64,000 nucleotides of DNA. Origin: Spirosoma endbachense (GTDB taxonomy: Bacteria; Bacteroidota; Bacteroidia; Cytophagales; Spirosomataceae). The notes under the pieces were generated by a model that did no database searches, was not told the origin of the DNA, and worked only from the letters and a program-made list of their open reading frames with translations. Below are positions 7,646 through 25,064 of the stretch, in pieces. The stretch is taken from positions 6,434,985 to 6,498,984 of the forward strand of contig NZ_CP045997.1 of NCBI RefSeq assembly GCF_010233585.1, given 5' to 3'. The translations under genes and the position numbers were made by a program. Positions within the stretch are counted from its first letter, which is position 1, and every line of letters starts with the position of its first letter.

Positions 7646-8206
7646 TCAGATTGGCTTCAGCAACGTTTTTAAGCGCTTCAATGCTTCGTGCAACGTTTTA
7701 TAAATACTGTCGATTTGCAGGCCTGTCTGCTCGGAAATTTCCTTGTACGACAGTTCTTCGAAGTATTTGAGCGTAATGATCTGTTTCTGGCGGGAGGTCA
7801 GTTCATTCATCGCCTGTACAAGTTGGCTGCGCCGAATAGCATCTTCTTCCTGTGCCACGAGAATATCTTCATAAGACGTTACGGGCAGATAAACCTCATC
7901 CAGCGGCTCTGTGGCCGTCTGCTGGAGTTTAGCTAGGGCTTTCACGAGTCTTTTTTTTAACGAACCTTTCAGATAAGCTTCAAACGATACCACGTCACCT
8001 AGTGTATGCCGGTACTGCCAAAGATCCTGAAAGATCGCCTGAATGGCTTCTTCGGTGAGGGTACTGTCAAATGACCATTTTATTCCAGCCCGAAAAAGTG
8101 GATTGTAGTACGTAGTAAATAAATACTGAAGCGCCTTCTCATCGTTTTGCCTGAGGGCCTGAAGGACTAGGGCATCTACATATTGGTCATTTTCTGCATT
8201 ATTCAT
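7646..8206 (-). CDS. ECF RNA polymerase sigma factor (FecI-like)
   Basis: A 186-residue two-domain sigma-70 factor. Region 2 is around residues 28-65 (YYNPLFRAGIKW...AIFQDLW) and region 4 near the C-terminus (LTSRQKQIITLKYFEELSYKEISEQTG...IYKTLHEALKRLK), with the helix-turn-helix that reads the -35 element. It is the first gene of the unit with the FecR anti-sigma and the STN receptor, which it presumably transcribes together with the downstream catabolic genes. No promoter sequence could be assigned with confidence. Confidence 0.92.
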   Translation of the reverse strand: MNNAENDQYVDALVLQALRQNDEKALQYLFTTYYNPLFRAGIKWSFDSTLTEEAIQAIFQDLWQYRHTLGDVVSFEAYLKGSLKKRLVKALAKLQQTATEPLDEVYLPVTSYEDILVAQEEDAIRRSQLVQAMNELTSRQKQIITLKYFEELSYKEISEQTGLQIDSIYKTLHEALKRLKTLLKPI

Positions 8207-8593
8207 GGATAAAATAAGAATAATGTAAAGCTGCCAATAAAGGTAGGCTTTTCAAGTCACATAAGTTCAAATAGGGTGACTATATCGTTCAGGAGATTAT
8301 ACTAAATGATGGGAGTGGGATTATAAACTCTGTAATTGTCTCGCAATTACAGGAAAATTAAACTGGACAATGCTCATGCTGTAAAAGCCTGCCTGGAAAA
8401 TAATCAGGTAAGAGTCTTAAGGTAAACGATGCCATGCTAAGAACAGAGAATTTCAGGTAAAAGCTCGAAAATTCGCATACAAAAAATGCTTGGCTATTTT
8501 ACGAGAACTTAAGAGTGGGAATGTCGATTAGGCAAGCCACTTCCAGATTTAAAAGCCCTCTAAACAGAAATAAATCTTTAAAATAGAGAAACT
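8207..8593. other. Intergenic region without a recognisable gene
   Basis: About 390 bases separate the divergently transcribed sigma factor gene and the small secreted-protein pseudogene. It must hold both promoters. I see no open frame of convincing composition and no strong repeat. Confidence 0.5.
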
Positions 8594-9114
8594 ATGAAAA
8601 GTTACATCCTTAAACTTTTGTTGTGTATTCTGACCTTGCTACCCACCCTGATATATGGTCAGCAGAAAACCAGTCCGAATCCCGTAAAATCCGTTAAGGG
8701 ATTGCCGGAAGGTACCGATTCGATACTCGTTGAGTATGCAACGCTGATGAAAATTGCCCGGAAATATGGTTTGGAAAATAATTGGAGCTTTACGCCTACG
8801 GCAGGCAATCCCAGGGGTAAGTCGCCCAAAAGGATCTTTTTAAAAATGAGCCTAGAGTAATTTGATGACTGGATGAAAACTTTTTCATTCGTTGAGGAAA
8901 AAGTAAAATTTTGCAGCAATTCTTTTTAGTGGATTTTCAGAAAGTGAGCACTGTTCAGGAGTACACGGCCTTGAAACGAGCTTATGTGAAGAAATACCCG
9001 GACTATTTAAAAGACGAAATGGGTTTTCGGGAGGCCGACATCCAGAAGGAAGAAAAGCATCCTGAATTAGTTTCGCTAAACACGCCTAATTTTCGGCCAT
9101 CCGTTAAAAAATAA
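8594..9114 (+). pseudogene. Broken gene for a small secreted protein (nonsense codon plus frameshift)
   Basis: The frame opens with a signal peptide (MKSYILKLLLCILTLLPTLIYGQ) and stops at TAA 8858-8860 after FLKMSLE. Reading through the stop continues as plausible protein (FDDWMKTFSFVEEKVKF). It then has to switch frame near 8900-8912 to continue as QQFFLVDFQKVSTVQEYTALKRAYVKKYPDYLKDEMGF and so on, ending at 9114. The two halves together would give a secreted protein of ~173 residues. I do not recognise the family. Two independent lesions argue for a real pseudogene, although sequencing error cannot be excluded. A good terminator follows. Confidence 0.6.
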
Positions 9115-9154
9115 ACAACAGTAGTAGTACTCTTTTCTGGCTGTATGATAAGCT

Positions 9155-9186
9155 TGCGGACTTTAGTTATGCGGCTAAAGTCCGCA
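9155..9186 (+). terminator. Intrinsic terminator after the broken secreted-protein gene
   Basis: Perfect 12-bp arms (TGCGGACTTTAG at 9155-9166; complement at 9175-9186), 8-nt loop, then TTCATTTTT on the plus strand. Confidence 0.75.
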
Positions 9187-9370
9187 TTCATTTTTAGACT
9201 TCATTGGGCTTAGTGCAAAGAGGGCTTCATGTACGAAATGTCTTTTTTATATGGGAAGCTCCGCTAGAACACCCAAATAATAGCATACGCATCCTGATAA
9301 TGACCTTTTTCTTGAAGGTTTGAGCGTTTCCCATTCGGGTAAAAGCTATGTATTTGCTGTTTCGGAAACA

Positions 9371-9405
9371 AAAAACCGCCTGTATGCTTCATACAGGCGG
9401 TTTTT
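9371..9405 (-). terminator. Orphaned terminator of the tRNA-Arg gene (now beyond the island)
   Basis: Perfect 16-bp arms (9371-9386 and 9390-9405) with a 3-nt loop. They begin with an A-run and end with a T-run, so the hairpin works in both directions. It lies 10 bp from the 15-bp copy of the tRNA 3' end at 9416-9430, in the position and orientation expected for the original tRNA terminator before the island inserted between them. Confidence 0.75.
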
Positions 9406-9415
9406 CTACTGTTTC

Positions 9416-9430
9416 GTGCTCCCGAAGGGA
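9416..9430 (-). other. attL: duplicated tRNA-Arg 3' end
   Basis: The 15 bases GTGCTCCCGAAGGGA match the tRNA 3' acceptor/T-arm region at 24992-25006. The next base differs (C against T), then TC is shared and similarity stops. Only the tRNA tail is present, so this is not a tRNA gene. Confidence 0.85.
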
Positions 9431-10060
9431 CTCAAATATGTTTTTGATTATCAGGCATTTAGGTGCAACTTTAAATAAGCTGTATCAAAACTGTATCGAC
9501 ACCAATTGGTCAGTTAGCTTAAGCTCGTCAAGAATTATGGTTTCCGTTTGTACCTACACGTACTTTTATAAACGTACAATGAAGGTTGAATACAAGTAGG
9601 ATACTAGGTGACTAGGAATCAGTTTAAGGAGGATTTTCTATACGGGCTTCTTGCTAAGGGATCATCAATGAGTACAACAATTGCCAATTTAGAGGGCCTT
9701 ATCCATTCCAGCCCAGATTTCAGGAAAGATTATTATATAGCAGTATAGGTTGAGGAGATTGTTTCTGAAGTTAAAACAAGATAACTAAAAAGCTCACTCT
9801 TGCCTGCCTACTCTAGTTATCCTGGGTATTCAATCGTAGCCGCTAATCGAGTAATGTCAGTGTGATAATCTCCTTATTTAGTTTGCTTGTAACTTACCAT
9901 GATTAGTGCAAAATACTAATATTACGAGTCTGTTCACAGAACAAATTTTACTATTAGAAGACAGTATACAGTTTATCTTGAGATTATCATTTTACAACAA
10001 ATAAATATAATTTATTTAACTTAAATAATTCGTATAAATGTTTAAGTCTGTGAACAAAAA
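9431..10060. other. Island left-end non-coding region
   Basis: About 630 AT-rich bases between attL and the receiver-protein gene. Apart from the arm-site repeat I see no convincing gene. A 26-codon frame from 9668 (MSTTIANLEGLIHSSPDF...) faintly resembles the N-terminus of DUF433 antitoxin-like proteins and then stops, so at most it is a remnant. Confidence 0.5.
9482..9497. repeat. Putative integrase arm-site repeat, left copy
   Basis: GTATCAAAACTGTATC occurs here, 51 bp inside attL, and again in the same orientation at 24850-24865, ~126 bp inside attR. Each copy itself contains two GTATC units. Matching repeats close to both ends suggest recombinase or directionality-factor binding sites. 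Confidence 0.6.
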
Positions 10061-11788
10061 TCATTTAATTTTTACAAAATCAACACCCACTCTGGCAGGA
10101 TGACCGAAAGCGTGATTAGCTATCCTTTGGGTATAATCACTTCTTAAGGTAGTAATATATTCAACATCAAAATAATTTAGATTCTGATCAAATTTTTCTC
10201 TTGCATAATTATTTGTTATATCCCAAATTCTAATTTTGTTGCCGATAAGCTTATTATTTTCAACATTATAAACTTTCGGTTTTATATAAAAAGGTTTATA
10301 GAGAAAACGGTTTAGCACTTCTATATTATGAACTAATTTTCCAATTAACCCATTTTGTAAAGCAAGGTCACCTTTTAATTTCTTGGAGTCATCCTCAGAA
10401 TTCGAAAGAATTAATTCTTTAATTTTTTTGAGCTCTGGTTTTTCTAAATCGCCCCAATAAACTGCCCTTCTGTTTGGTAAAAAACTCAAGAAAGCTGTAT
10501 CTCCCAATCTTAACGCTAATTCTAAATCGTTAAATTCAGTTCCTTTTACAAAGTAAAAATTGTGATCAATTTTATTTGGATAATAACAATCACATAGAGC
10601 TGTTACGCACAAAAAATAATCATTCCCTTCACCTTTAAAAATATCTCCGAAGTTCAGATTAGGTATGTCGTCCGGATTTAGGCTCTTTACAGAAACAGAA
10701 TTATAAAAAACATTCAATTGAAACAGGTCTTCTATGCTTGGCTCTTTGTTTTTCAGTTCATTACTTTTAAAATCTAAGAAGTCTTCTTTCAATAATTCAA
10801 GCTTAGCTGTTCTCAATTTTAATGTTGCTTGCTCTAACAATAACTTCTTGATAATAATGCCAAAAGTCTTATCATCCTTAAGATGATTTCTAAATTGAAA
10901 AAGAGCTTCTGTTGAAGACTTTAATATAGTTTCATCAATAAAACTTTCATTTGAGTTAAAAACAGATTGCATTTCTAATCCCAATAACTGAAAAAAACTT
11001 CCATTATTTTTTATTACAATTTCTGAAATTCTTCCCAAAAGCTTATTATAATCAGCATCTTCTTTTAAATCTTTTTTTAACGTCAATACAAAAGTATTAT
11101 TGATGATAAAAGAATTATCTCCTACGTTTAATACTTCATAATCATTATTCGCATATTCCGGAATAATAACCTTTTCACCTACAAGCGAAATATATATGTA
11201 ACGTAAAATTAATTCGACAGATTTTTCTCTTATTCTTTCAATAGGGAAATTGTCAATTTCTATAGCATTTTCTTTAAAGAAATCGTTTATATTATTATTA
11301 CTATTCCATAATTTCTGAATTTCTTCGGGTTCAATATATTCATAGGTTGTTTTTATACTCTCAAAATCTTCTTTATTTAATCCAGAAAAATATGCATCCA
11401 AAAAAAGCGGAATTTCATTGAAATTTGCTGAACTGGAATATATACAACAGAAGTTTATATATGGTGTGCTAACAGCTTTATTTAACAACTTTAAAGAATA
11501 TTCTTGTCCTGCAATCCCAGATAATTCCCAATCTAAAAGAATTAAATCTTTTCCTTTAAATAAGTAATCTAGAGTTTGGGGATTTTCAAGATTTGCTGCT
11601 TCAAACTTATGAACTATTAAGCTTTTTCCATTCTCCTTAAAAGTTTTATAAAGATCTTCCGATAATTTTTCTTCCATTATATCAGTATTGATCGGAGTCC
11701 CCGAGTAAAAATCCTTAGCTTTTTCATCAATAAATACAGCAGAATTGATAGATGAATTCAATATGGTGAAGGCTTTAGAACTATACAT
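10061..11788 (-). CDS. Receiver-domain protein with unknown C-terminal domain, partner of GHKL ATPase
   Basis: This 575-residue protein begins with a CheY-like receiver fold: acidic pair in VFIDEKA (residues 18-24), probable phospho-acceptor Asp86 in DLILLDWELSG, and a Ser-rich position in CCIYSSS (~114-120). The remaining ~430 residues match no family I know. They are rich in Lys, Asn, Ile and Phe and end with a distinctive block (TTLRSDYTQRIANHAFGHPARVGVDF). It is the last gene of a tight operon, starting 1 base after the stop of the histidine-kinase-like GHKL gene, so a phosphorelay from that protein is the obvious inference. With no nuclease gene in the operon, the C-terminal domain is a candidate effector or DNA-binding module. 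Confidence 0.7.
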   Translation of the reverse strand: MYSSKAFTILNSSINSAVFIDEKAKDFYSGTPINTDIMEEKLSEDLYKTFKENGKSLIVHKFEAANLENPQTLDYLFKGKDLILLDWELSGIAGQEYSLKLLNKAVSTPYINFCCIYSSSANFNEIPLFLDAYFSGLNKEDFESIKTTYEYIEPEEIQKLWNSNNNINDFFKENAIEIDNFPIERIREKSVELILRYIYISLVGEKVIIPEYANNDYEVLNVGDNSFIINNTFVLTLKKDLKEDADYNKLLGRISEIVIKNNGSFFQLLGLEMQSVFNSNESFIDETILKSSTEALFQFRNHLKDDKTFGIIIKKLLLEQATLKLRTAKLELLKEDFLDFKSNELKNKEPSIEDLFQLNVFYNSVSVKSLNPDDIPNLNFGDIFKGEGNDYFLCVTALCDCYYPNKIDHNFYFVKGTEFNDLELALRLGDTAFLSFLPNRRAVYWGDLEKPELKKIKELILSNSEDDSKKLKGDLALQNGLIGKLVHNIEVLNRFLYKPFYIKPKVYNVENNKLIGNKIRIWDITNNYAREKFDQNLNYFDVEYITTLRSDYTQRIANHAFGHPARVGVDFVKIK

Positions 11789-11789
11789 T

Positions 11790-14684
11790 TTATTTAGTAA
11801 TTTGGTTTATTACGAAGCAAGCTCCATTTAAAGAATTATATTTTTTATCGTTAGTTGCGTAAATATCCAAATTGGCTTCGTTTAAACTTTGCTTTGATAA
11901 ATAAAGCCCAATCCCTCTGCCATTAGGGCGTTGAGAATAGAACAAATCAAAAACCTTATTAAGCCTATAGTCAGGTATTTTTTCTCCTGAATTAGCAATA
12001 ATGATCTCTTTGGGATTCGGTAAATAATCAAGTTTAATAATACGCTGTTCTTTATTTCGCATCCAGTAAATAGCATTGTTTATAATATTAATAAATACTG
12101 TGTGAATTACCGGCTCTTTAATGCTAATTAAATGTGTTTTAAATTCATCAGAAACTTCAAGTCTTATGCTATATTCTTCAATCTGATTTTCAAAAAAATC
12201 AAGTAAATAATTGTAAATTGTATTTCCTGGAATGTCTTTAACTAATGCACCAGAAATCCTGTACAACGGAGAAAGTAGCGCATATTTATCTTCCAGTTGT
12301 TTGAAATTTCTTTCTAAGAAACCAAACTCCTTAATTGAATTAACTTCTGAATTTTTACTTAGTTCTCCTAACTGGCTATTTATTTTTGCATACAGTTGAT
12401 TGAATTCATGGTCGATAATTTCAACTGCAATCCCTAATTGAGCTGTATCTCTGGTTTGCTCCCATTGGTATTTCATTTGTTCATATTGAGCTTTATAAGC
12501 GCCTTGAACTTGTTCTTCGTCAATATCGAATGATAATCGCTTTATATGCTCCACCAACGGAAATAATGTTTTTCCAGCTTCTTCTAACAGAGTATAATAT
12601 TGTTTTTCAATCTCGTCAGCAAATTGTATTATCTGATATTTGGAAACTATGCTTTTTATTGTCGTTTCTTTATTCTCTGATAGAGAAGAAGTTAATCGTT
12701 TTGCTCTATCTCTGTATTCTTTAATTAATAAAGCAGATTTTTCATCAAGTTGTTGTCGATATTCATTGAGTGATTTTTCCAGAGAATAAATATATCCGTT
12801 ATATTTCTTCGTAAAATCAATTTTTAAATCCCTAATTTCTAATTTATCCTGTGCTTTTTTATTTAATTCTTCCCTTCTCGGGGTAACAGATTCAATATAA
12901 TTATTTAAACGATTTTCAAACTTATATAACCGTTCTTTTTGCGTTTCAGTAGGTCTATATCTTCTAGGAACTTTAGGAATTAATCCTTTAAGGTCTAAGT
13001 CAAGCTTTTGAAGTTCATCTAAAATATACTCAACTTCTGAGTATGTGATATTGATATTATCTAGTTTTTCATCTAATGTATTGAGAAGACTTTCATACTT
13101 AGTTTGGTGTTCATCTAATTTTTGAGGGTAAGTATTCAATGCTTTAGTGAATGCAATCTTTTCTACTTTTTCTCTAGCTTTGTCTGCCTCTAAAGCTTTA
13201 TTTTGATCTTGAATCTCAATTAATTTATCTCTAAAAAGCGACTGTTTAGGTGTTGTTGCAAAAAAATCTTGTGCTAAGGCAATAAAAAAATTTGTAGCAT
13301 CACTGGTGAATGCTCGGTATTGGGCATTGTTTATTAATCCCTCTCTACTAGACTTATCTCTTAAATCAGGGTTTCTTTCTCTGGTCAGAGCTATATAACC
13401 ATACATTCTTCGATAAGAAAAATAATATGTACCTGCTCTTTTAGACCTTCTAAGTTCAAAGTTCAAAAAGTCGGCATTTTCTCTTCCATAAGGTAACACC
13501 CTGAAATCATCTCTGAATACGTATAGGCCTCCATACTCTCTAACTTTAGTTGAGATTTTTTCAAATTGGATTTCTGATAAATTCGAAGAATTTTCTATTC
13601 CCTGAGAATATCCTAATTCAATTGGAATACTACCATAAAAAGAACGTTTATCTTTTTTTCTGGGATTAGTATAGTTGTAGTCAATGGTTTTATCAAATAT
13701 TCTTAAAATACCATCAAAAGTACCATTTCCGTCAAAACGCCCCTTTATATAGACATCCGCTAAATCAAAATCAGATTTTTCAAAAAAGTTACCTTGTTTA
13801 GTTAACAAATCATAAGTTTCTAAATCTTTATGAATGTTAAAAACAGCTTCTATTTTGATTGAAGTTTCTTTAAAAGGGTTAGTAAACCCTATCAGGCTTG
13901 ATGTAACAAAGTTGCCTTCGTCTATTTTGTCCTCATCTTTTTCTGATAATTCTATAATTTGGTTTATAGGATTAAATACTAAAAACATTGTCCCGTGTGA
14001 ATCATCAGAATTATAGAAGGATAATATATTATTCAGAATTGGTTTTTCCAATTCTGAATTTATCGTATCTGAAATAATATCGAATTTTAATTCTATTTGT
14101 TTTCCCTCCCAAATTGGACTATTATCTGAATCAAATTCTTTGTCAAAATTCGATAAAAACATATTTTTCAATTCATGGAAATCCACATTAATCGATTCTG
14201 TTTTTTCAACAGACCTAATCGGAATTGTAATATCATCCAGAAATAAATTATAATTTTCTAATAATCTCCAATCGAAATATATTGCTTGCAGTGGATAACC
14301 GATTTTCTTTGTAAGCATCAGCATTGGATTACCTAAATAAGCTACGGATAAGCGTCCAATACCTTTTTCTCCGGCTTTAATACGTGGTCTTTTCCATAAA
14401 GTATCCTCGGATTCTTCCTCTAATTCTGCCCTTGACTTGGAGTCTGTTCCAAGTACTAACCACTTATCTAAAACATCAGTGCCGGACATTCCTTTTCCGT
14501 CATCAGAAATTACAAAATAAGATTTTGAAAGTCCGTTGTAGCCTTCTTTAAATAAATCAGCGCTTAATTTATCCGCATAAGCGTCGTAACCGTTTTTCCA
14601 TAACTCGGTAATTGCCGTAGGCAGATCTGCAATTTGTCCTTTCCCGAGTAAGTCTACCGCCCTTGCTTTTGTTCTAAACTGCAT
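11790..14684 (-). CDS. Dual GHKL ATPase: MORC/Hsp90-like N-terminus fused to histidine-kinase-like C-terminus
   Basis: The 964-residue protein contains two Bergerat-fold modules. The N-terminal one has the N-box E27LWKN31xxDA, G1 box DDGKGM (61-66) and G2 box GEKGIGR (105-111), as in MORC/Hsp90/MutL ATPases. It is followed by an S5-like region carrying NPDLRDKSSREGL (about residue 440). A long charged coiled-coil stretch (~490-740) leads to a histidine-kinase-like end: possible phospho-accepting His759 in EIIDHEFNQL, N-box NIINNAIYW (866-874), G1 ANSGEKIPD and G2 GRGIGLYLS (~923-931). It overlaps the methyltransferase gene by 11 bp and precedes the receiver gene by 1 bp. MORC-type ATPases in restriction-modification-like operons have been proposed from genome analysis; the mechanism of this fusion is unknown to me. 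The gene is AT-rich compared with the chromosome. Confidence 0.82.
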   Translation of the reverse strand: MQFRTKARAVDLLGKGQIADLPTAITELWKNGYDAYADKLSADLFKEGYNGLSKSYFVISDDGKGMSGTDVLDKWLVLGTDSKSRAELEEESEDTLWKRPRIKAGEKGIGRLSVAYLGNPMLMLTKKIGYPLQAIYFDWRLLENYNLFLDDITIPIRSVEKTESINVDFHELKNMFLSNFDKEFDSDNSPIWEGKQIELKFDIISDTINSELEKPILNNILSFYNSDDSHGTMFLVFNPINQIIELSEKDEDKIDEGNFVTSSLIGFTNPFKETSIKIEAVFNIHKDLETYDLLTKQGNFFEKSDFDLADVYIKGRFDGNGTFDGILRIFDKTIDYNYTNPRKKDKRSFYGSIPIELGYSQGIENSSNLSEIQFEKISTKVREYGGLYVFRDDFRVLPYGRENADFLNFELRRSKRAGTYYFSYRRMYGYIALTRERNPDLRDKSSREGLINNAQYRAFTSDATNFFIALAQDFFATTPKQSLFRDKLIEIQDQNKALEADKAREKVEKIAFTKALNTYPQKLDEHQTKYESLLNTLDEKLDNINITYSEVEYILDELQKLDLDLKGLIPKVPRRYRPTETQKERLYKFENRLNNYIESVTPRREELNKKAQDKLEIRDLKIDFTKKYNGYIYSLEKSLNEYRQQLDEKSALLIKEYRDRAKRLTSSLSENKETTIKSIVSKYQIIQFADEIEKQYYTLLEEAGKTLFPLVEHIKRLSFDIDEEQVQGAYKAQYEQMKYQWEQTRDTAQLGIAVEIIDHEFNQLYAKINSQLGELSKNSEVNSIKEFGFLERNFKQLEDKYALLSPLYRISGALVKDIPGNTIYNYLLDFFENQIEEYSIRLEVSDEFKTHLISIKEPVIHTVFINIINNAIYWMRNKEQRIIKLDYLPNPKEIIIANSGEKIPDYRLNKVFDLFYSQRPNGRGIGLYLSKQSLNEANLDIYATNDKKYNSLNGACFVINQITK

Positions 14685-15750
14685 TTTTATGATTTTGAAT
14701 TATAGCTTTACCTATTGCAGTGGCATATTTTGGAGGTACAGCATTTCCAATCATTCTTGCGGTATTTTCAATACTTGTTGCTTTAAAAATATAGGTTTTA
14801 GGAAAAGACTGTAATACAGCTCCCTCTCTTAATGAAATTGCTCTGTCTTCTTCAGGATGCCCGAAGCGTCCATTAGAGATACTGAAAAATTTTGTTGTAA
14901 TTGTAGGGGATGGTCTATCCCACCACATACGCCCATAAACGTCACTAAAACCTTCTGTCTTCCCCTTATGACATTTTGGCGCTAAATTTTCATCATCAAC
15001 ATACGCCATTCGTCCACCTCCATCTTTGGGGGTTACAGCTAATCGATCTAAGTTTACTTTTTGTAAGCCTGCAACTGTATGTAAAAAATCTGAAGAATCC
15101 TTGTGCCCAGGTCTAACTTTTGGGAATCCATTATGCTCACCGATAACGTCTCGAACAGTTATTTTTTTCTCTTGAGCTATTACCGGTATTAATTCTTTTG
15201 ATGAAACACGATTGGCAATTAATGTAAATCTTTTTCTATACTGAGGAACTCCATAATTGCTAACTTCATGTACATCAAAATGAACTTTATATTTATTTTC
15301 TGCTAACCAATTAATAAATTCGTCTAACCCACTTTCTTCCTTGCGTTTTAAAACGCCAGGAACATTTTCTACAACAACATAACCCGGATTAAAATATTCT
15401 ACAAAGCGTTTAAACTCGATAAGTAGATTTTTTGATTTATTCGATTTCGTCTTGTCTGTATATATTAGGCTCCAAAATTGGCAAGGGCTACATCCGATTA
15501 AAATAAGTTCGTCATCGTTTTTAAAGAGGGAAAGTTGTTCTTGAAGAGTCTCTTCCTTTAGATTAAAAACATCGGCATGAATAAATTCTGCACCATGAAT
15601 GTTAGCCTCATAAGTAGATTTGCAATTTCCATCAAAATCAATCCCAGCAACTATTTGAACTCCAGCTTCTTGCATTCCAAAACTCATTCCACCTCCAGAG
15701 CAAAAGAAATCCACGGCTTTCAGGCCACATTTTGTCTTTGTAGTCTCCAA
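14674..15750 (-). CDS. DNA C5-cytosine methyltransferase (Dcm/HhaI type)
   Basis: The 358-residue enzyme transfers a methyl group from SAM to cytosine C5 in a specific DNA sequence. All key motifs are visible: I (VDFFCSGGGMSFGM), IV with catalytic Cys (LIGCSPCQFWS), VI (VVVENVPG), VIII (YGVPQYRKRF), the target-recognition stretch between VIII and IX, and X (RMIGNAVPPKYA). It should be active. The target sequence cannot be predicted. It heads the operon and overlaps the GHKL gene by 11 bp. No restriction endonuclease or Vsr gene is adjacent, so it either marks self-DNA for a GHKL/receiver-based effector or is itself regulated by that pair. Confidence 0.93.
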   Translation of the reverse strand: METTKTKCGLKAVDFFCSGGGMSFGMQEAGVQIVAGIDFDGNCKSTYEANIHGAEFIHADVFNLKEETLQEQLSLFKNDDELILIGCSPCQFWSLIYTDKTKSNKSKNLLIEFKRFVEYFNPGYVVVENVPGVLKRKEESGLDEFINWLAENKYKVHFDVHEVSNYGVPQYRKRFTLIANRVSSKELIPVIAQEKKITVRDVIGEHNGFPKVRPGHKDSSDFLHTVAGLQKVNLDRLAVTPKDGGGRMAYVDDENLAPKCHKGKTEGFSDVYGRMWWDRPSPTITTKFFSISNGRFGHPEEDRAISLREGAVLQSFPKTYIFKATSIENTARMIGNAVPPKYATAIGKAIIQNHKNAV

Positions 15751-15801
15751 TGCTAAACTTATTTAATAAGGTATTTTCAGATTTTAAAATCACAAATAGG
15801 C

Positions 15802-15859
15802 TTGTATAAGCTCATTATACAATTACACCACCATTGTTATCATAATATAGTGTATACAA
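15802..15859 (-). promoter_or_regulatory. Candidate operator upstream of the methyltransferase operon
   Basis: An 8-bp dyad TTGTATAA/TTATACAA (15802-15809 and 15815-15822, 5-nt spacer) lies 52-72 bp upstream of the methyltransferase start. A third related half-site, TGTATACAA, lies at 15851-15859. This is a plausible repressor site over the promoter; the binding protein is unknown. Confidence 0.4.
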
Positions 15860-15916
15860 ATGTAGGAGCTTTTAGGAAAAGCTACACAAGAAATCTATTG
15901 TTATTATTGATATGTA

Positions 15917-16766
15917 AGAACCTGTTAAAAAATAGGTTGAAGACTCAGAAAAGACAGAATTAGTCAATCGTTGGGGATGAGCTGATCAAAGCCATACCCC
16001 TCCTTGACTGATTCCGCCGGGAAAGTTATCCAAGAAATCTTGGCTGACAAGAGAAATCGAAAATATTCCCTGCGCCGTATTTTTGATGCCCTGCTTTATA
16101 TCACTAAAACAGGCGGCCAGTGGCGCCAAATGCCTAATGACCTACCGCCTTGGCCATTATGTTATTACTACTTCCGGAATTGGAGCGCCGAAGCAATGGC
16201 GCAACAACGGCACTTGGGAAAAGCTTAATAAAGCGTTCGTCGAACGCAGACGAAATAAAGCTAATCTAGAAGCCTCACTAGTGTGGGTGTAATTGATTAT
16301 CAGGGTGTTAAATGTAGCGAATAGAGTGTAGTGTCTAAGGCTATGATGGCTGCAAGTAGATTAACGGCCCTAAGCTGCATATTGTAGTCGATACGTTAGG
16401 ACTGGTTTTGGTTGTCGTCGTCCATGCCGCCAATATTCATGATAGTCCGGCGGCACGACTAGTGATAAGTCGGCTAGCTCTGCTAGGTTTTGAACAGATC
16501 AATAAGCTCTTAGCTGACAGCGGCTATGGCAAGAAGTTAGCGGGTTGGATGAAAAAGTCGTATGGACTGATTCTAGAAGTGGTTAAGGTGAGCGAGTTGG
16601 CTGGTTTTTAGATGATACCCATGCGTTGGAAAGTTGAGTGGACGTTTGCCTAAAGAATTGGTCACGACGCTTGAGCAAGGACTATGAATGTGGGGTTAAT
16701 TCACACGAATCGTTTGTATATTTATCCAATATCAACCGAATGCTTAAGCATTTTTAAACAGGTTCT
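15917..16766 (+). mobile_element. Degenerate IS5-family (IS427-like) insertion sequence
   Basis: Near-identical inverted ends (AAGAACCTGTTaAAAAAT type) at about 15916-15933 and 16750-16767 are flanked by TA at 15915-15916 and 16767-16768, consistent with a TA target duplication. The ~850 bp in between encode transposase fragments only. It lies inside the island, upstream of the methyltransferase operon. Confidence 0.75.
15990..16680 (+). pseudogene. IS5-family transposase pseudogene
   Basis: The fragments include LTDSAGKVIQEILADKRNRKYSLRRIFDALLYITKTGGQWRQMP...WPLCYYYFRNW, the N-terminal domain of IS402/IS427-type transposases. Frameshifts follow near 16200-16260, and a later piece around 16400-16611 (VVVVHAANIHDSPAARLV...LLADSGYGKKLAGW) matches the DDE catalytic core region. 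Several frame breaks and stops mean that no intact transposase can be made, so the copy is immobile unless helped in trans. Confidence 0.8.
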
Positions 16767-16917
16767 TAAAGTTTAATGCATTTGAAATAGATTTTATTCT
16801 ATTACCTCCAATAACTGTATTATACAGCGGTAAACTGTCATAGTTTTGTCCAAGCCATCTTAATGAGCCTTTTCCTAAAATCTTTTCAAGAATAATTATT
16901 GATTCATTAGTAAGCAT
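16744..16917 (-). CDS. Small hypothetical ORF, 3' end altered by IS insertion
   Basis: From ATG at 16917 the frame reads MLTNESIIILEKILGKGSLR and on to SNALNF, then runs into the IS end and stops at 16744. With the IS removed (one TA kept), the frame would end as ...NFTYQ stop, giving a protein of ~52 residues. Composition is reasonable and AT-rich, like the neighbouring defence operon, but I do not recognise it. It may be a remnant. Confidence 0.3.
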   Translation of the reverse strand: MLTNESIIILEKILGKGSLRWLGQNYDSLPLYNTVIGGNRIKSISNALNFKNLFKNA

Positions 16918-17280
16918 ATTTTAAATCAATATTTAATAAGTTGTAGAAGTTATGGCCTTTCCTTATAATAAAAATAAAATAAATTTAATATTTAAGCAGC
17001 CTCTTTGTGCCTAATTTAATCCATCTCTCAAACATTATGTTTGGAGGCGTGAATTTTATGAACTCTTATAGATCATTTATAGATATTGATAATCAACGTC
17101 TTACATTGTGTTATTCTACTTCTGTACCAAAATAGGAGCAATTACTGTTAAAATTGATTTGTTATATAGATTATTTCTATATTAAAATAATATTGATAGA
17201 TTATTTCTATTTAGTGAAGACAGCTTGAGAAAGTATATCTTGTCATAGTAGTACGTGAAAATTTATTCGTTATTCATATC
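16918..17280. other. AT-rich non-coding stretch with a 15-bp direct repeat
   Basis: No convincing gene. ATAGATTATTTCTAT occurs at 17166-17180 and again at 17196-17210, exactly 30 bp apart, in a region composed mainly of A and T. Confidence 0.5.
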
Positions 17281-17314
17281 GAATAAAGGAGGGGGCTAAC
17301 CCCCTCTTTTATTC
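17281..17314 (-). terminator. Terminator after the RimK-partner gene
   Basis: A 15-bp stem (GAATAAAGGAGGGGG with its complement, one G-U pair) around the loop CTAA at 17296-17299. It overlaps the last codons and stop of the small gene at 17309. Confidence 0.65.
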
Positions 17315-17515
17315 GCCCCTATAAGCTTTATCCATTGCCTCATCTACCCGCTTTTTCATTTCATTCTCAGAGGGGCTTTCAACTTGTAGATGATAAACTG
17401 TCTTTCCCCTTTGGCCTCTGCCCAGATTGATGCGAAACTTGTAAGCTAGCTTGCCATGAATATTGAGGCTCCCATCGGGTAAGTAATCGGGTATGTCATC
17501 GGTTGGCTCTGGCAT
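17309..17515 (-). CDS. Small hydrophilic protein paired with a RimK-like ligase
   Basis: This 68-residue protein (MPEPTDDIPDYLPDGSLNIH...KAYRGE) has no signal peptide or membrane segment and matches nothing I know. Its start overlaps the end of the ATP-grasp gene by 20 bp, so the two are co-translated. It ends in a C-terminal Glu, interesting because RimK adds glutamates to the C-terminal Glu of ribosomal protein S6. It could therefore be a substrate or adaptor, but this is inference only. Confidence 0.55.
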   Translation of the reverse strand: MPEPTDDIPDYLPDGSLNIHGKLAYKFRINLGRGQRGKTVYHLQVESPSENEMKKRVDEAMDKAYRGE

Positions 17516-18587
17516 AAGTCTTTTTGTTTACTTGGTTTAACTTCTCATAAAAATTGGTGTGTAAGCTCGCGACCTGGGGATGATTAGCTAGATGAGTGAC
17601 ATCTCCCATTACATGAGCCACGTATATCTTACCATCATCATCAGTAAACGTATCAGTGCGGTAAGCACCGTAGCCTTCTTTAGTGGTTGCTCCTCGCTTT
17701 TTTTCTTTTATACAATATTCAATCAGGTTCTTAAAGAAGTTAATACCTGTTATGTCAATAATCTTGGTCCCTGGATTGCCGTTTACCTCGATGACATAGC
17801 TAATACCTTCCTTATCCTTCATCAAGTCTACGCCTGAGTACTCTAAGCCAACTGCTTTACTGGCATCAATACAGAGCTGTTGATCTTCTTTTGATAGGAC
17901 GAGCTTGCGGCCAGAACCCGACTTGGATAGGTTGGCCCGAAAGTCGCCTTTGTTGGCCGTTCGTTCCATAGCTGTTACTACTTCATCACCTACCACAATC
18001 GCTCGTATATCAGTGAAATTACCGTCAATGTAGCGCTGAAGCTTTACATTGATTTCATGCTTATAAAAACTCTCTAGGGTTGTGTTAGCTGATAGCTTGG
18101 TTTCCAGAATTGAAACACCTGAACCTTGAGAGCCATATACTGATTTAACGACAACTGGTAAACCGTCCATAAGATCTTCAATGATGTATTGAACGTGAGC
18201 CGGGGCTTTTGACCAAACCGTCTTAGGGGTTTTTAAGCCAGCTTGTGAAAGCCGAAGCGTTGTTTGGATCTTATTTGAGGCAGTACGAAGCGGTTCTCCT
18301 TTTTGTGGGGAGTAGATCCCCAGATTATTGTTTAAGTGTTCCAGGACAACCGTTTTGTGTTCTAATTGTCCTGAAAGCCGGGGAATGATAAAATCGTAAT
18401 CTTTTATTTTTAATCGTTGGGGTTTTTCCAGTTCTGGATTGCCATCATAGATACGATCATAGCCGCTAACGTTTTCACTGATGTACAGATACAAGTCTAA
18501 AGGCTCGTAGGCTTGCAAAGTACAATCCGTCTCTTTGGCGGCTTCTAGGAGATACTTACCGGCAGTACCTAGTGTTAGGATATGCAT
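17496..18587 (-). CDS. RimK-family ATP-grasp ligase (alpha-L-glutamate ligase-like)
   Basis: The 363-residue protein has the ATP-grasp fold of RimK. Visible motifs are KSVYGSQGSGVSILE (ATP-binding loop, ~160), DIRAIVVGDEVVTAMERTA...GDFRANLSKSG (~213-245; Arg and Lys for nucleotide and acyl-phosphate) and YVIEVNGNPGTKIID (Mg-binding Glu and Asn, ~275-289). RimK enzymes ligate amino acids, usually glutamate, to a carboxylate with ATP hydrolysis. A C-terminal extension of ~70 residues (AYRTDTFTDDDGKIYVAHVMG...) is beyond the usual length. It sits on the mobile element with a 68-residue partner, so modification of a small protein or interference with the host translation machinery is conceivable. 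Substrate unknown. Confidence 0.85.
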   Translation of the reverse strand: MHILTLGTAGKYLLEAAKETDCTLQAYEPLDLYLYISENVSGYDRIYDGNPELEKPQRLKIKDYDFIIPRLSGQLEHKTVVLEHLNNNLGIYSPQKGEPLRTASNKIQTTLRLSQAGLKTPKTVWSKAPAHVQYIIEDLMDGLPVVVKSVYGSQGSGVSILETKLSANTTLESFYKHEINVKLQRYIDGNFTDIRAIVVGDEVVTAMERTANKGDFRANLSKSGSGRKLVLSKEDQQLCIDASKAVGLEYSGVDLMKDKEGISYVIEVNGNPGTKIIDITGINFFKNLIEYCIKEKKRGATTKEGYGAYRTDTFTDDDGKIYVAHVMGDVTHLANHPQVASLHTNFYEKLNQVNKKTYARANR

Positions 18588-23523: not shown

Positions 23524-23587
23524 AAAAGTGATGCTAGAGCTTACACGTGGATTACATAATCCACGTGTAAGCTCTAGCATCACTTTT
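23524..23587. repeat. 31-bp perfect hairpin at the integrase 3' end
   Basis: Arms 23524-23554 and 23557-23587 are perfect complements with a 2-nt centre (CA). It contains ACACGTGGATTA and overlaps the integrase stop codon (23580-23582). It is a strong transcription terminator or mRNA-stability structure for the minus-strand integrase. Confidence 0.85.
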
Positions 23588-24791
23588 GATAAGAATTAGG
23601 CCACTTAATAGCTCGTAAGGCGGTTTCAATTGCATGGCCTGACGTATGTACATATCCCATTGTGGTCTGTATATCCGAGTGTTGAGCCAGCTCCTTAACC
23701 ATTGGCGTTGGTAAGACGGTTGATAGATAGGTAAGGCCAGAATGCCGGGCAGTATGAAACGTAACCGCCTTAGTAATTCCGGCCATTCGAATAACCTCTT
23801 TAAGATGTTTATTCATTTTCACATGAGACCGTCTAAAGAAAGGTTGTGAATCCGTACGTGAATAGGTTATTAGTATTCGCTCTGGCTTGCTGTGTCCGTC
23901 AGCAGTTGGAAACAATAGCCCAAGCGGTAAACGAGCTTCCTTTTTAGATTTTTGCGTTACAAATTCAAGCAGTATGCCCTCATTAGTTTGCAAGATGTGT
24001 TTGCGACTAATCCGGGTAATATCGCTGATCCGTAGTGAGGTATAAAAGGCAAACAAAAAGGCATCACGGTAAAAGGTTAAATGCTGGTTTTCTTCCGTAA
24101 ATATTAACCGTTCGATTCGCTCGATTTCTTCAATTTGTAAGGCTACCTTATTGACTCGGGCTTTCTTTGGCCTAAAGTCGTTATAAGGGTTCTGTTGGGG
24201 TAAAAAAAGTCCTTTGCGTTCGGCATTGTCCAGGCATTTCTTGATTGCTTGATGATACTTATAGATATAATTGGCTCCAAGCCGAAGAGTGGTCTTTAGG
24301 TGGAAGTCAAACCGTTCTATAAAGTCCAGAGTTAACGTATCAAATTCCAGATCGTTACCCGCGTTAAATTCATGCAAGCGCGTCAATACTAATTGAGAAT
24401 GTTGAAAGGCCCGGTAAGACAGCTCGGGCTTTCTGCGTTGCAACTGCTCCCGATAGTGGCTTGAAAAGGTGGCCTTCGCTTTATTAGGCTGATTAGCAGC
24501 CTTTAGCATCAAGTCAAAATCTTTCAGAGTAAACGCCTGTTTGTATTGACTCTCAAACAGGGTTTCAAAATCGCTCAGATCCGTTATCTGCTTACGAACT
24601 TTACTCATGTGAGTAGGATTCTTCAGCTCATCTTTACGAAAATCCCAGTCCTCTTTTCTGACTTTAAAGCCTGTTGCAAAATACCGTCGCAAGCCATTTT
24701 GATAGGCTTCAATAACAACGGGTGCTTTACCGTCTTTAGTGGTCTGTTTACGGCGGTTGAACAGAAGTCGATACCTTACTTTGTGCGTCAT
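23580..24791 (-). CDS. Tyrosine recombinase (site-specific integrase of the island)
   Basis: About 403 residues from the preferred start MTHKVRYRLLFNRR at 24791; the longer frame to 24833 adds 14 residues that do not resemble the family. Order: arm-binding domain (~1-90), SAM-like core-binding domain (~100-200) and catalytic domain. Catalytic residues are visible: Arg in TSLRISDITR, Lys in TQKSKKEAR, His-Thr-Ala-Arg in FHTARHSGL, His in AQHSDIQTT and nucleophile Tyr in TTMGYVHTS. It should integrate at the tRNA-Arg 3' end 200 bp away. Intact, so the element may still be mobile. Confidence 0.93.
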   Translation of the reverse strand: MTHKVRYRLLFNRRKQTTKDGKAPVVIEAYQNGLRRYFATGFKVRKEDWDFRKDELKNPTHMSKVRKQITDLSDFETLFESQYKQAFTLKDFDLMLKAANQPNKAKATFSSHYREQLQRRKPELSYRAFQHSQLVLTRLHEFNAGNDLEFDTLTLDFIERFDFHLKTTLRLGANYIYKYHQAIKKCLDNAERKGLFLPQQNPYNDFRPKKARVNKVALQIEEIERIERLIFTEENQHLTFYRDAFLFAFYTSLRISDITRISRKHILQTNEGILLEFVTQKSKKEARLPLGLLFPTADGHSKPERILITYSRTDSQPFFRRSHVKMNKHLKEVIRMAGITKAVTFHTARHSGLTYLSTVLPTPMVKELAQHSDIQTTMGYVHTSGHAIETALRAIKWPNSYQK

Positions 24792-24849
24792 GGCAAACTG
24801 ATTGTTTGGTTTGCACCAAACATCTACCGACAACGGCCCAAAAAAATGC

Positions 24850-24942: not shown

Positions 24943-24979
24943 AATAAGGCTTATAAATCGCTGATTTATAAGCCTTATT
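24943..24979 (-). terminator. Hairpin directly after tRNA-Arg, supplied by the island
   Basis: Perfect 17-bp arms (AATAAGGCTTATAAATC at 24943-24959; complement at 24963-24979) with a 3-nt loop. It lies 14 bp downstream of the tRNA 3' end. It could replace the tRNA's original terminator, which now lies at 9371-9405. Confidence 0.6.
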
Positions 24980-24991
24980 GAAATTTACTCA

Positions 24992-25006
24992 GTGCTCCCG
25001 AAGGGA
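24992..25006 (-). other. attR: island junction within tRNA-Arg 3' end
   Basis: GTGCTCCCGAAGGGA forms the 3' acceptor strand and part of the T-arm of the intact tRNA, and matches attL. The tRNA sequence is fully restored by integration. Confidence 0.85.
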
Positions 25007-25064
25007 TTCGAACCCCTATCGTCGGTACCGGAAACCGAAATTCTATCCATTGAACTACGGAAGC
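24993..25064 (-). tRNA. tRNA-Arg, anticodon CCG
   Basis: 72 nt on the minus strand. Acceptor GCTTCCG pairs with CGGGAGC (one G-T pair), D-stem GTTC/GAAT, anticodon stem TCGGT/ACCGA with loop TTCCGGT (anticodon CCG at 25029-25031), T-stem AGGGG/CCCTT with loop TTCGAAT, discriminator A. CCA is not encoded. It reads CGG codons, and its 3' end is the integration site of the island. Confidence 0.93.

Follow-up and report, generated by a model that had tools for sequence, protein, structure and literature searches.

The window analysed here is a stretch of 64,000 nucleotides from Spirosoma endbachense (contig NZ_CP045997.1, positions 6,434,985 to 6,498,984), and our subject is an operon of three genes on its minus strand, which encode a cytosine DNA methyltransferase, a protein joining a MORC-type ATPase to a histidine kinase, and a receiver protein. 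The C5 cytosine DNA methyltransferase (14674..15750; 358 amino acids (aa), TTG start) matches PF00145 (1.7e-51) and, above its cut-off, TIGR00675, and its catalytic Cys was placed by eye at residue 90 in the motif PCQ. The second gene (11790..14684) encodes 964 aa comprising a MORC-type GHKL ATPase, a long helical region and a histidine kinase (hereafter the kinase). The third (10061..11788) encodes a receiver protein, which Pfam assigns to the Response_reg_2 family; the open reading frame (ORF) found here has 575 aa and the public copy 566 aa. All named domains of the three proteins exceeded their cut-offs in the Pfam scan. An earlier note, made from the sequence alone, had described a tightly packed, AT-rich operon on a mobile island, and each of these points was borne out: the 11-bp overlap between the methyltransferase and kinase ORFs and the 1-bp gap between the kinase and receiver ORFs are exact, the GC content of the operon is 28-35% as compared with about 43-57% outside the island, and the island has tRNA-Arg repeats, a tyrosine integrase and an empty site in a close relative.

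The arrangement is of a known kind, because both of its characteristic Pfam families, PF19191 (HEF_HK) and PF19192 (Response_reg_2), were defined from the same arrangement in 2021 (Bellieny-Rabelo et al., 2021, PMC8011034). The accessible text of that report places the HEF_HK/Response_reg_2 pair beside C5 methylases, with kinase and receiver genes linked in 91.6% over 644 regions and C5 methylases frequently upstream; the three-domain order was present in 174 of 222 proteins, the active-site Asp was conserved in 100% and the His was also conserved. The 'group 1' element of these authors shares its Pfam families with the window operon, in which we found HATPase_c_3, HEF_HK and HATPase_c in this order, an adjacent Response_reg_2 gene and a C5 methylase upstream. 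Thus, the window holds a further member of the 2021 kind, and the idea that the trio is an undescribed combination, for which the earlier note knew of no described mechanism, was ruled out by the 2021 description. Two differences should be noted: the window copy has no adjoining Vsr or other nuclease gene, which is frequent but not defining in the element, and the 2021 report, in its accessible text, gives no other known domain for the receiver protein, for which a conserved C-terminal domain is resolved here. No experimental study of the trio was found in searches of one open-access library.

To describe conservation, we used 74 distinct loci, taken from the best 80 of 99 relatives and found by kinase patterns only. 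Where the upstream DNA was readable (71 loci), 66 had a methylase gene next to the kinase gene and in the same orientation; where the downstream DNA was readable (66 loci), 65 had a receiver gene after the kinase gene, and in the remaining one (L076) an open receiver frame was recognised by eye. Co-conservation, on which the earlier note had made its proposal depend, was thus confirmed: the genes keep company in many unrelated hosts and also on two plasmids of Proteobacteria, the order differing on one of them; on a Rhizobium plasmid (L100:5971-12741), the order is kinase, receiver, C5 methylase and then Vsr. Among the 58 rows with all three proteins, distances correlated at 0.85 for kinase and receiver, 0.74 for kinase and methylase and 0.64 for receiver and methylase. 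The trio is sparse in the phylum, where PF19192 had matches in 17 of 395 genomes (9 above the cut-off), and a kinase search of 36 genomes of the genus gave no other genome with a match better than 3.6e-12. All three genes are fragmented on two contigs of Niabella hibiscisoli (L057 and L058), which are possibly a single locus assembled twice.

The kinase protein matches PF13589 (HATPase_c_3) at residues 23-146 with 41.4 bits, PF19191 (HEF_HK) at 749-811 with 73.2 bits and PF02518 (HATPase_c) at 858-958 with 39.2 bits. Its fold model (predicted local distance difference test, pLDDT, 81.2; predicted template modelling score, pTM, 0.56) matches a MORC/SMCHD1 core and a DHp-CA kinase core, in agreement with the double ATPase seen in the earlier note. 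The MORC-like half is a GHKL+S5 module of residues 1-485 (13230..14684, minus strand), with E27, N31, D61-DGKGM, GEKGIGR and an S5-type transducer after the GHKL domain; a sequence search of the PDB gave nothing for this half at E<=1. Residues were counted over the non-gap rows of the 74 loci and of short loci from a phylum survey, and E27, N31, D34, D61, G63, G65 and G105 were invariant (72/72); the motifs DDGKGM and GEKGIGR vary little or not at all in homologues. The DHp-like HEF_HK domain (residues 749-811, 12252..12440, minus strand; PF19191 2.5e-20) contains the candidate phosphate acceptor His759 (12408-12410), and the model is weak in this stretch, with pLDDT <50 at 745-757 and 803-811. 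The earlier note had let its proposal depend on His759 of the kinase and Asp86 of the receiver; H759 was found in 78 of 78 rows, followed by E in 56 (the window has H759-E760) and Q in 22. The ATP-binding (CA) domain of the kinase (residues 858-958, 11811..12113, minus strand; PF02518 1.1e-9) has N866 and N870 in all 75 rows.

The receiver protein matches PF19192 at residues 13-153 (82.1 bits against a cut-off of 27), and its fold model (pLDDT 86.6, pTM 0.76) predicts a receiver domain of residues 12-261 (11006..11755, minus strand) with D21, D86 (11531-11533), S118 and K239. The phosphate-acceptor candidate Asp86 passed the same scrutiny as His759: D21, D86 and T/S118 were each present in 72 of 72 rows, and K239 in 59 of 59 rows of one alignment and 67 of 72 of another. 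Because an insertion of about 100 residues lies after strand 4 and before strand 5, which bears Lys239, the receiver fold extends to residue ~261 and, therefore, about 310 residues come after it. The earlier note had counted ~430 unrecognised C-terminal residues; the stretch is indeed unrecognised, but this length was an overestimate, and part of it is a conserved domain. Receiver-fold matches cover residues 12-261 only, and a Foldseek search with the whole protein gave no match at E<=0.001.

On the basis of 59 aligned sequences, the C terminus (residues 352-575, 10064..10735, minus strand) forms a conserved orphan domain. G381, D382, C399, F413, W445, R555, N558 and G568 were each found in 59 of 59 sequences and D400 and Q554 each in 58; C401, within C399-D400-C401, is likewise conserved, every listed residue being present in 57 to 59 of the 59. 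No His is among the invariant residues of this domain. Pfam gave no family common to the set, PDB sequences gave no match, and PHROG gave none that was convincing. No helix-turn-helix was seen among the 25 (of 27) families shown for the 59 scanned receiver proteins. A search for the domain in shorter proteins gave 57 matches of 87-390 aa, and of the 10 that were read, one is a deletion fusion and the other nine resemble fragments of receiver proteins. Protein P0272 is a natural fusion by deletion, in which the receiver C-terminal domain follows the first ~90 residues of a MORC-kinase. A search of E. coli DNA with a Vibrio relative led nowhere.

The genes beside the trio vary. In 33 of 60 loci, another gene follows the receiver gene on the same strand at a distance of no more than 100 bp, and the gene in this position, in the 60 scanned loci, was Vsr in 8, HNH_2 in 8, AAA_15 in 6, HNH in 4, a C5 methylase in 4, NOV_C in 3 and RE_Eco47II in 1. 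Upstream of the methylase, Vsr was found in 7 of 61 scanned loci (61 of the 64 readable ones, L057, L058 and L073 being left out). One of 11 neighbour families, each label based on one seed, occurred within about 2.5 kb in 50 of the 74 loci, and Vsr in 23; these tallies count loci and not independent events. When nine neighbour proteins were compared with PADLOC HNH and defence-candidate models, two matched near full length, four partially or weakly and three not at all. The restriction-modification-like setting proposed in the earlier note is supported.

We then asked which gene of the trio the neighbour type follows. On the methylase tree, the nuclease label changed 14 times, as compared with a shuffled mean of 19.7, and none of 1000 shuffles was as low; the receiver tree required 16 changes (12/1000 as low) and the kinase tree 17 (71/1000). 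The receiver tree thus does hold a nuclease-type signal, weaker than that of the methylase tree. Loci with the same label also had closer methylases, and this held when kinase distance was corrected for (p 0.0005; 0.002 when de-duplicated), in a test of 31 labelled rows, or 27 without near-duplicates, whose label shuffles ignore phylogeny except via the kinase-distance residuals. In L054 and L074, the kinase is 37% identical to that of the window, HNH_2 is nearby, and the methylases score 540 and 603 bits against the window's. In our reading, methylase and nuclease form a pair that can be exchanged, and the kinase-receiver pair that they surround is fixed. Since the nucleases beside relatives vary, a nuclease is at least as likely to be the output as the receiver protein. 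We also considered the receiver as a nuclease-specific adaptor and rejected this idea: after kinase-distance correction, neither the whole receiver (p 0.14 for all, 0.29 de-duplicated) nor its C-terminal part (p 0.32 and 0.45) tracked the nuclease.

Several described systems share parts of this architecture. According to the accessible text of Iyer et al. (2008, PMC2292703), paraMORC/MORC operons combine an N-terminal GHKL+S5 ATPase with cytosine methylases and Vsr, as here; the window protein differs by an additional histidine-kinase core and by its receiver partner, the word 'receiver' being absent from that text. VcSduA, a GHKL-ATPase Shedu system earlier annotated as paraMORC3, likewise has an N-terminal GHKL ATPase and a DNA-cleaving defence output, and its E27A mutant loses protection; on the other hand, its nuclease is fused to the ATPase, and the available part of the report mentions no kinase core, receiver or methylase (PMC12137116). 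A ParaMORC3-annotated gene facing an adjacent Dcm gene was also observed in phage PhiR44_1 (L101:2956-6004), between portal and replication genes. The Detocs system is reportedly a phage defence based on a kinase-to-receiver phosphorelay, and is said to have neither a MORC module nor a methylase.

A genus search exposed divergent proteins that have both GHKL modules. In L103:253-8913, L119:9256-18916 and L120:4150-13728, a double-GHKL kinase and a receiver-like protein are encoded between sspC and sspD, which resembles the window pair, although SspABCD acts by phosphorothioation, a chemistry other than methylation; L103/L119 and L120 represent two genomes of a single genus, and no Ssp gene was noticed beside the window operon. 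PADLOC models of SspC and SspD match L103 at E 0 and 2e-109, the Ssp locus of L120 was recognised by its similarity to L103, and cysteine-desulfurase-like and SspB-like genes were seen by eye upstream in the Ssp-type loci. The partner downstream of the kinase has 659-687 aa. Its C-terminal domain in L103 matched the profile of the window family at E 1.8e-9 (seven-protein set) and 5e-8 (larger set), the L120 partner is a clear homologue of that of L103 (1e-95), and both together gave an hhalign probability of 86% against the family (E 4.8e-6, 85 columns). Among 395 genomes of the class, the pair was present in 1 of 13 SspC loci (L119) and was not found in the other 12, sspD adjoining sspC in 11 of 11 readable ones; strong relatives of the L103 kinase occurred in 2 of the 395, its own genome included.

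Other divergent pairs adjoin methylases. In L118:6598-11337, an N4/N6-methylase-like gene is followed by a double-GHKL kinase and a receiver-like protein with a C-terminal match at E 1e-4 (hhalign probability 41%), and in L104:2958-8779 an N4/N6-methylase-like gene that matches PF01555 is directly followed by a similar pair with a weak C-terminal match (E 0.003). In L105:2303-6917, a C5 methylase is accompanied by a double-GHKL protein in which no H-E/D motif could be recognised, and by a receiver-like protein of 298 aa that matches PF00072 below the cut-off. A histidine kinase beside sspE in Acinetobacter was read in 2020 as a regulator of SspE expression in the accessible text (PMC7464106), and the words 'receiver', 'MORC' and 'GHKL' do not occur in the main text, as far as available, of a 2026 BREX survey covering Ssp.

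The Ssp-locus kinases and their receiver-like partners would fit a module untied to one modification. It is conceivable, though less likely than not, that MORC-kinase and receiver form a portable self/non-self relay serving 5-methylcytosine, apparent N4/N6-methylation and phosphorothioation defences, with the window as its 5-methylcytosine-coupled member; the MORC clamp would read the DNA, and the phosphorylated receiver with its 'GD-CD' domain would act on exchangeable outputs. Several findings speak against such a relay. With L120 added from the genus search, the pair was found in 2 of 14 SspC loci, both in one genus. The L103 kinase has HEF_HK at 22.3 bits, under the cut-off of 24.1, and the protein downstream of it has no Pfam match; its receiver residues were recognised by eye, and the alignment program did not align them. 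The L120 receiver-like protein had no match to the window-family profile at E<=1e-3. We lowered our confidence in the portable relay slightly because the receiver part of the Ssp-type protein was recognised by eye, the L120 protein was unmatched on its own and the loci come from one genus.

Considering the order and co-occurrence of the genes, the predicted folds, the conserved residues and the exchange of neighbours together, we tentatively regard the operon as the core of a modification-linked restriction system under a relay that responds to DNA state, a reading that keeps the core idea of the earlier note and to which we give somewhat less than even weight. The methyltransferase would mark host DNA, and the MORC module would clamp DNA in an ATP-dependent manner and tell self-marked from foreign DNA. 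This module is a natural candidate for the DNA reader because MORC2 is reported to be a DNA clamp driven by ATP and regulated by phosphorylation (PMC12216690) and VcSduA loses protection with E27A (PMC12137116), both according to the portions of the reports available. The long helical region might relay the MORC state and switch the C-terminal kinase, with phosphorylation of His759, and the phosphate would then pass to the receiver at Asp86. Once phosphorylated, the receiver protein could license a DNA-cleaving output via its conserved C-terminal domain. In many relatives, this output would be a separate, exchangeable nuclease gene paired with the methyltransferase; for the window copy, the nuclease may have been lost or be encoded elsewhere, or the receiver protein may act alone. 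Phosphotransfer from kinase to receiver is likely, and a role in restriction or defence, presumably against phage, is probable to a similar degree. That control of a separate nuclease is the usual output is less certain, and here we lean to neither side with any firmness, if marginally towards no.

A number of observations weigh against the restriction reading. The adenine-binding Asp that the G1 box of a kinase (D-x-G-x-G) normally carries is replaced in the window, where the box is N898-S-G-E-K (N898 codon at 11991-11993), and the residue is Asn in 70 of 75 rows and Asp in 5 of 75; two of these five are L075 and L076, whose titles name Caldilineaceae and Chloroflexi, and the remaining three are distant loci from the phylum survey. 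Kinase activity is therefore not certain. The MORC ATP site keeps its Asp while the G1 box is Asn family-wide. The operon does contain the DNA methyltransferase that a type II restriction-modification system requires (PF00145, TIGR00675), but no cognate restriction endonuclease was seen in the operon, its flanks or six scanned island genes, inspection by eye of 8200-10061 and 15750-17500 gave no candidate nuclease ORF, and no Vsr or HNH_2 gene was found in the whole 10.3-Mb genome, other nuclease types not having been sought genome-wide. Among relatives, 24 of the 74 loci lacked all 11 neighbour families over a distance of about 2.5 kb, some of them ending at contig ends. The nuclease-methylase association comes from 31 labelled loci, 9 of them HNH_2, and the target-recognition region of the methylase held no extra nuclease signal beyond the enzyme core. 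Before correction, the nuclease label was also associated with the kinase (p 0.02; 0.10 de-duplicated) and the receiver (p 0.01; 0.06); correction for methylase distance removed both associations. In addition, neither the kinase nor the receiver is convincingly matched by a model of PADLOC 2023, and NCBIfam searches found no system for either protein.

Four other explanations were compared with the restriction reading. The kinase and receiver might tune the synthesis or activity of methylase and nuclease in the manner of a C protein, leaving invading DNA untouched. Such expression control is in line with the speculation of the 2021 authors, in the accessible text, about signalling that controls restriction-modification (PMC8011034) and with the regulatory role assigned to the Acinetobacter kinase by sspE (PMC7464106); we consider it unlikely, as the families shown for the 59 receiver proteins include no helix-turn-helix, and a MORC-type DNA-clamp fold would be an unusual sensor for expression alone. 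A similarly low probability is given to the receiver itself as effector, in which Asp86 phosphorylation would activate the C-terminal domain as an enzyme or toxin and nucleases would be optional. The lack of a recognisable nuclease beside the window copy, the 24 relatives lacking all 11 neighbour families and the C399-D400 and Q554-R555/N558/G568 set, which looks like a functional site, would suit this explanation; it is weakened by the absence of an invariant His and of any Pfam or PDB-sequence match in the C-terminal domain.

The operon could also serve the methylase as an accessory for MutL/Vsr-like repair or for DNA compaction, and not be a defence system. Indeed, 23 of the 74 loci have Vsr at a distance of up to about 2.5 kb, and Iyer et al. 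(2008, PMC2292703) liken MORC/paraMORC, in the text available, to MutL in mismatch or very-short-patch repair. However, 51 of the 74 loci have no Vsr there, many have HNH, McrB-like, NOV_C or PD-(D/E)XK genes instead, and the receiver and the Ssp-coupled kinases would be left unexplained, so that we regard a repair role as quite improbable. Chance adjacency of unrelated cargo genes on a mobile island, which does carry RimK-like and replication genes, is contradicted by co-conservation of the trio in many unrelated hosts and on two proteobacterial plasmids, and hardly deserves any weight.

In our judgement, the timing of cleavage by restriction systems and the workings of bacterial MORC relatives are not yet understood. 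If the restriction reading is true, MORC clamp, kinase and receiver would provide a chemical read-out, the Asp86 phosphate, of DNA self and non-self, and the presence of such a pair in phosphorothioation loci would point to a relay that senses the general state of DNA and not one modification. What makes the locus interesting is the orphan domain of its receiver protein, the way in which neighbour genes are exchanged and the reappearance of a comparable pair among Ssp genes. The C-terminal domain of the receiver protein is a conserved unknown whose structure and partner are directly testable.

The operon lies at one end of an AT-rich 15.6-kb island. The left attachment repeat, a copy of the tRNA-Arg 3' end (9416..9436), and the right attachment site (24992-25012) within the tRNA-Arg (ccg) gene (24992..25064, minus strand) form a 21-bp direct repeat, 90% alike. 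The tyrosine integrase of the island (23580..24833, minus strand) matches PF00589, PF13102 and PF17293. One close relative, with 96% and 99% identity in two flanking proteins, has an empty site: its alignment to the window stops at 8310 and restarts at 24978 with about 340 bp between, and it has a single tRNA-Arg end. Phage-borne spread left no sign: a scan of viral contigs confirmed 0 of 36 pattern matches, and phage records gave three partial matches. The island also carries RepB-primase and D5-type replication genes and, as other cargo, a RimK-like ATP-grasp gene (17496-18587). Just upstream of the methylase lies a decayed insertion-sequence remnant (15906-16777), in which 28-nucleotide imperfect inverted repeats and transposase-like fragments were recognised by eye.

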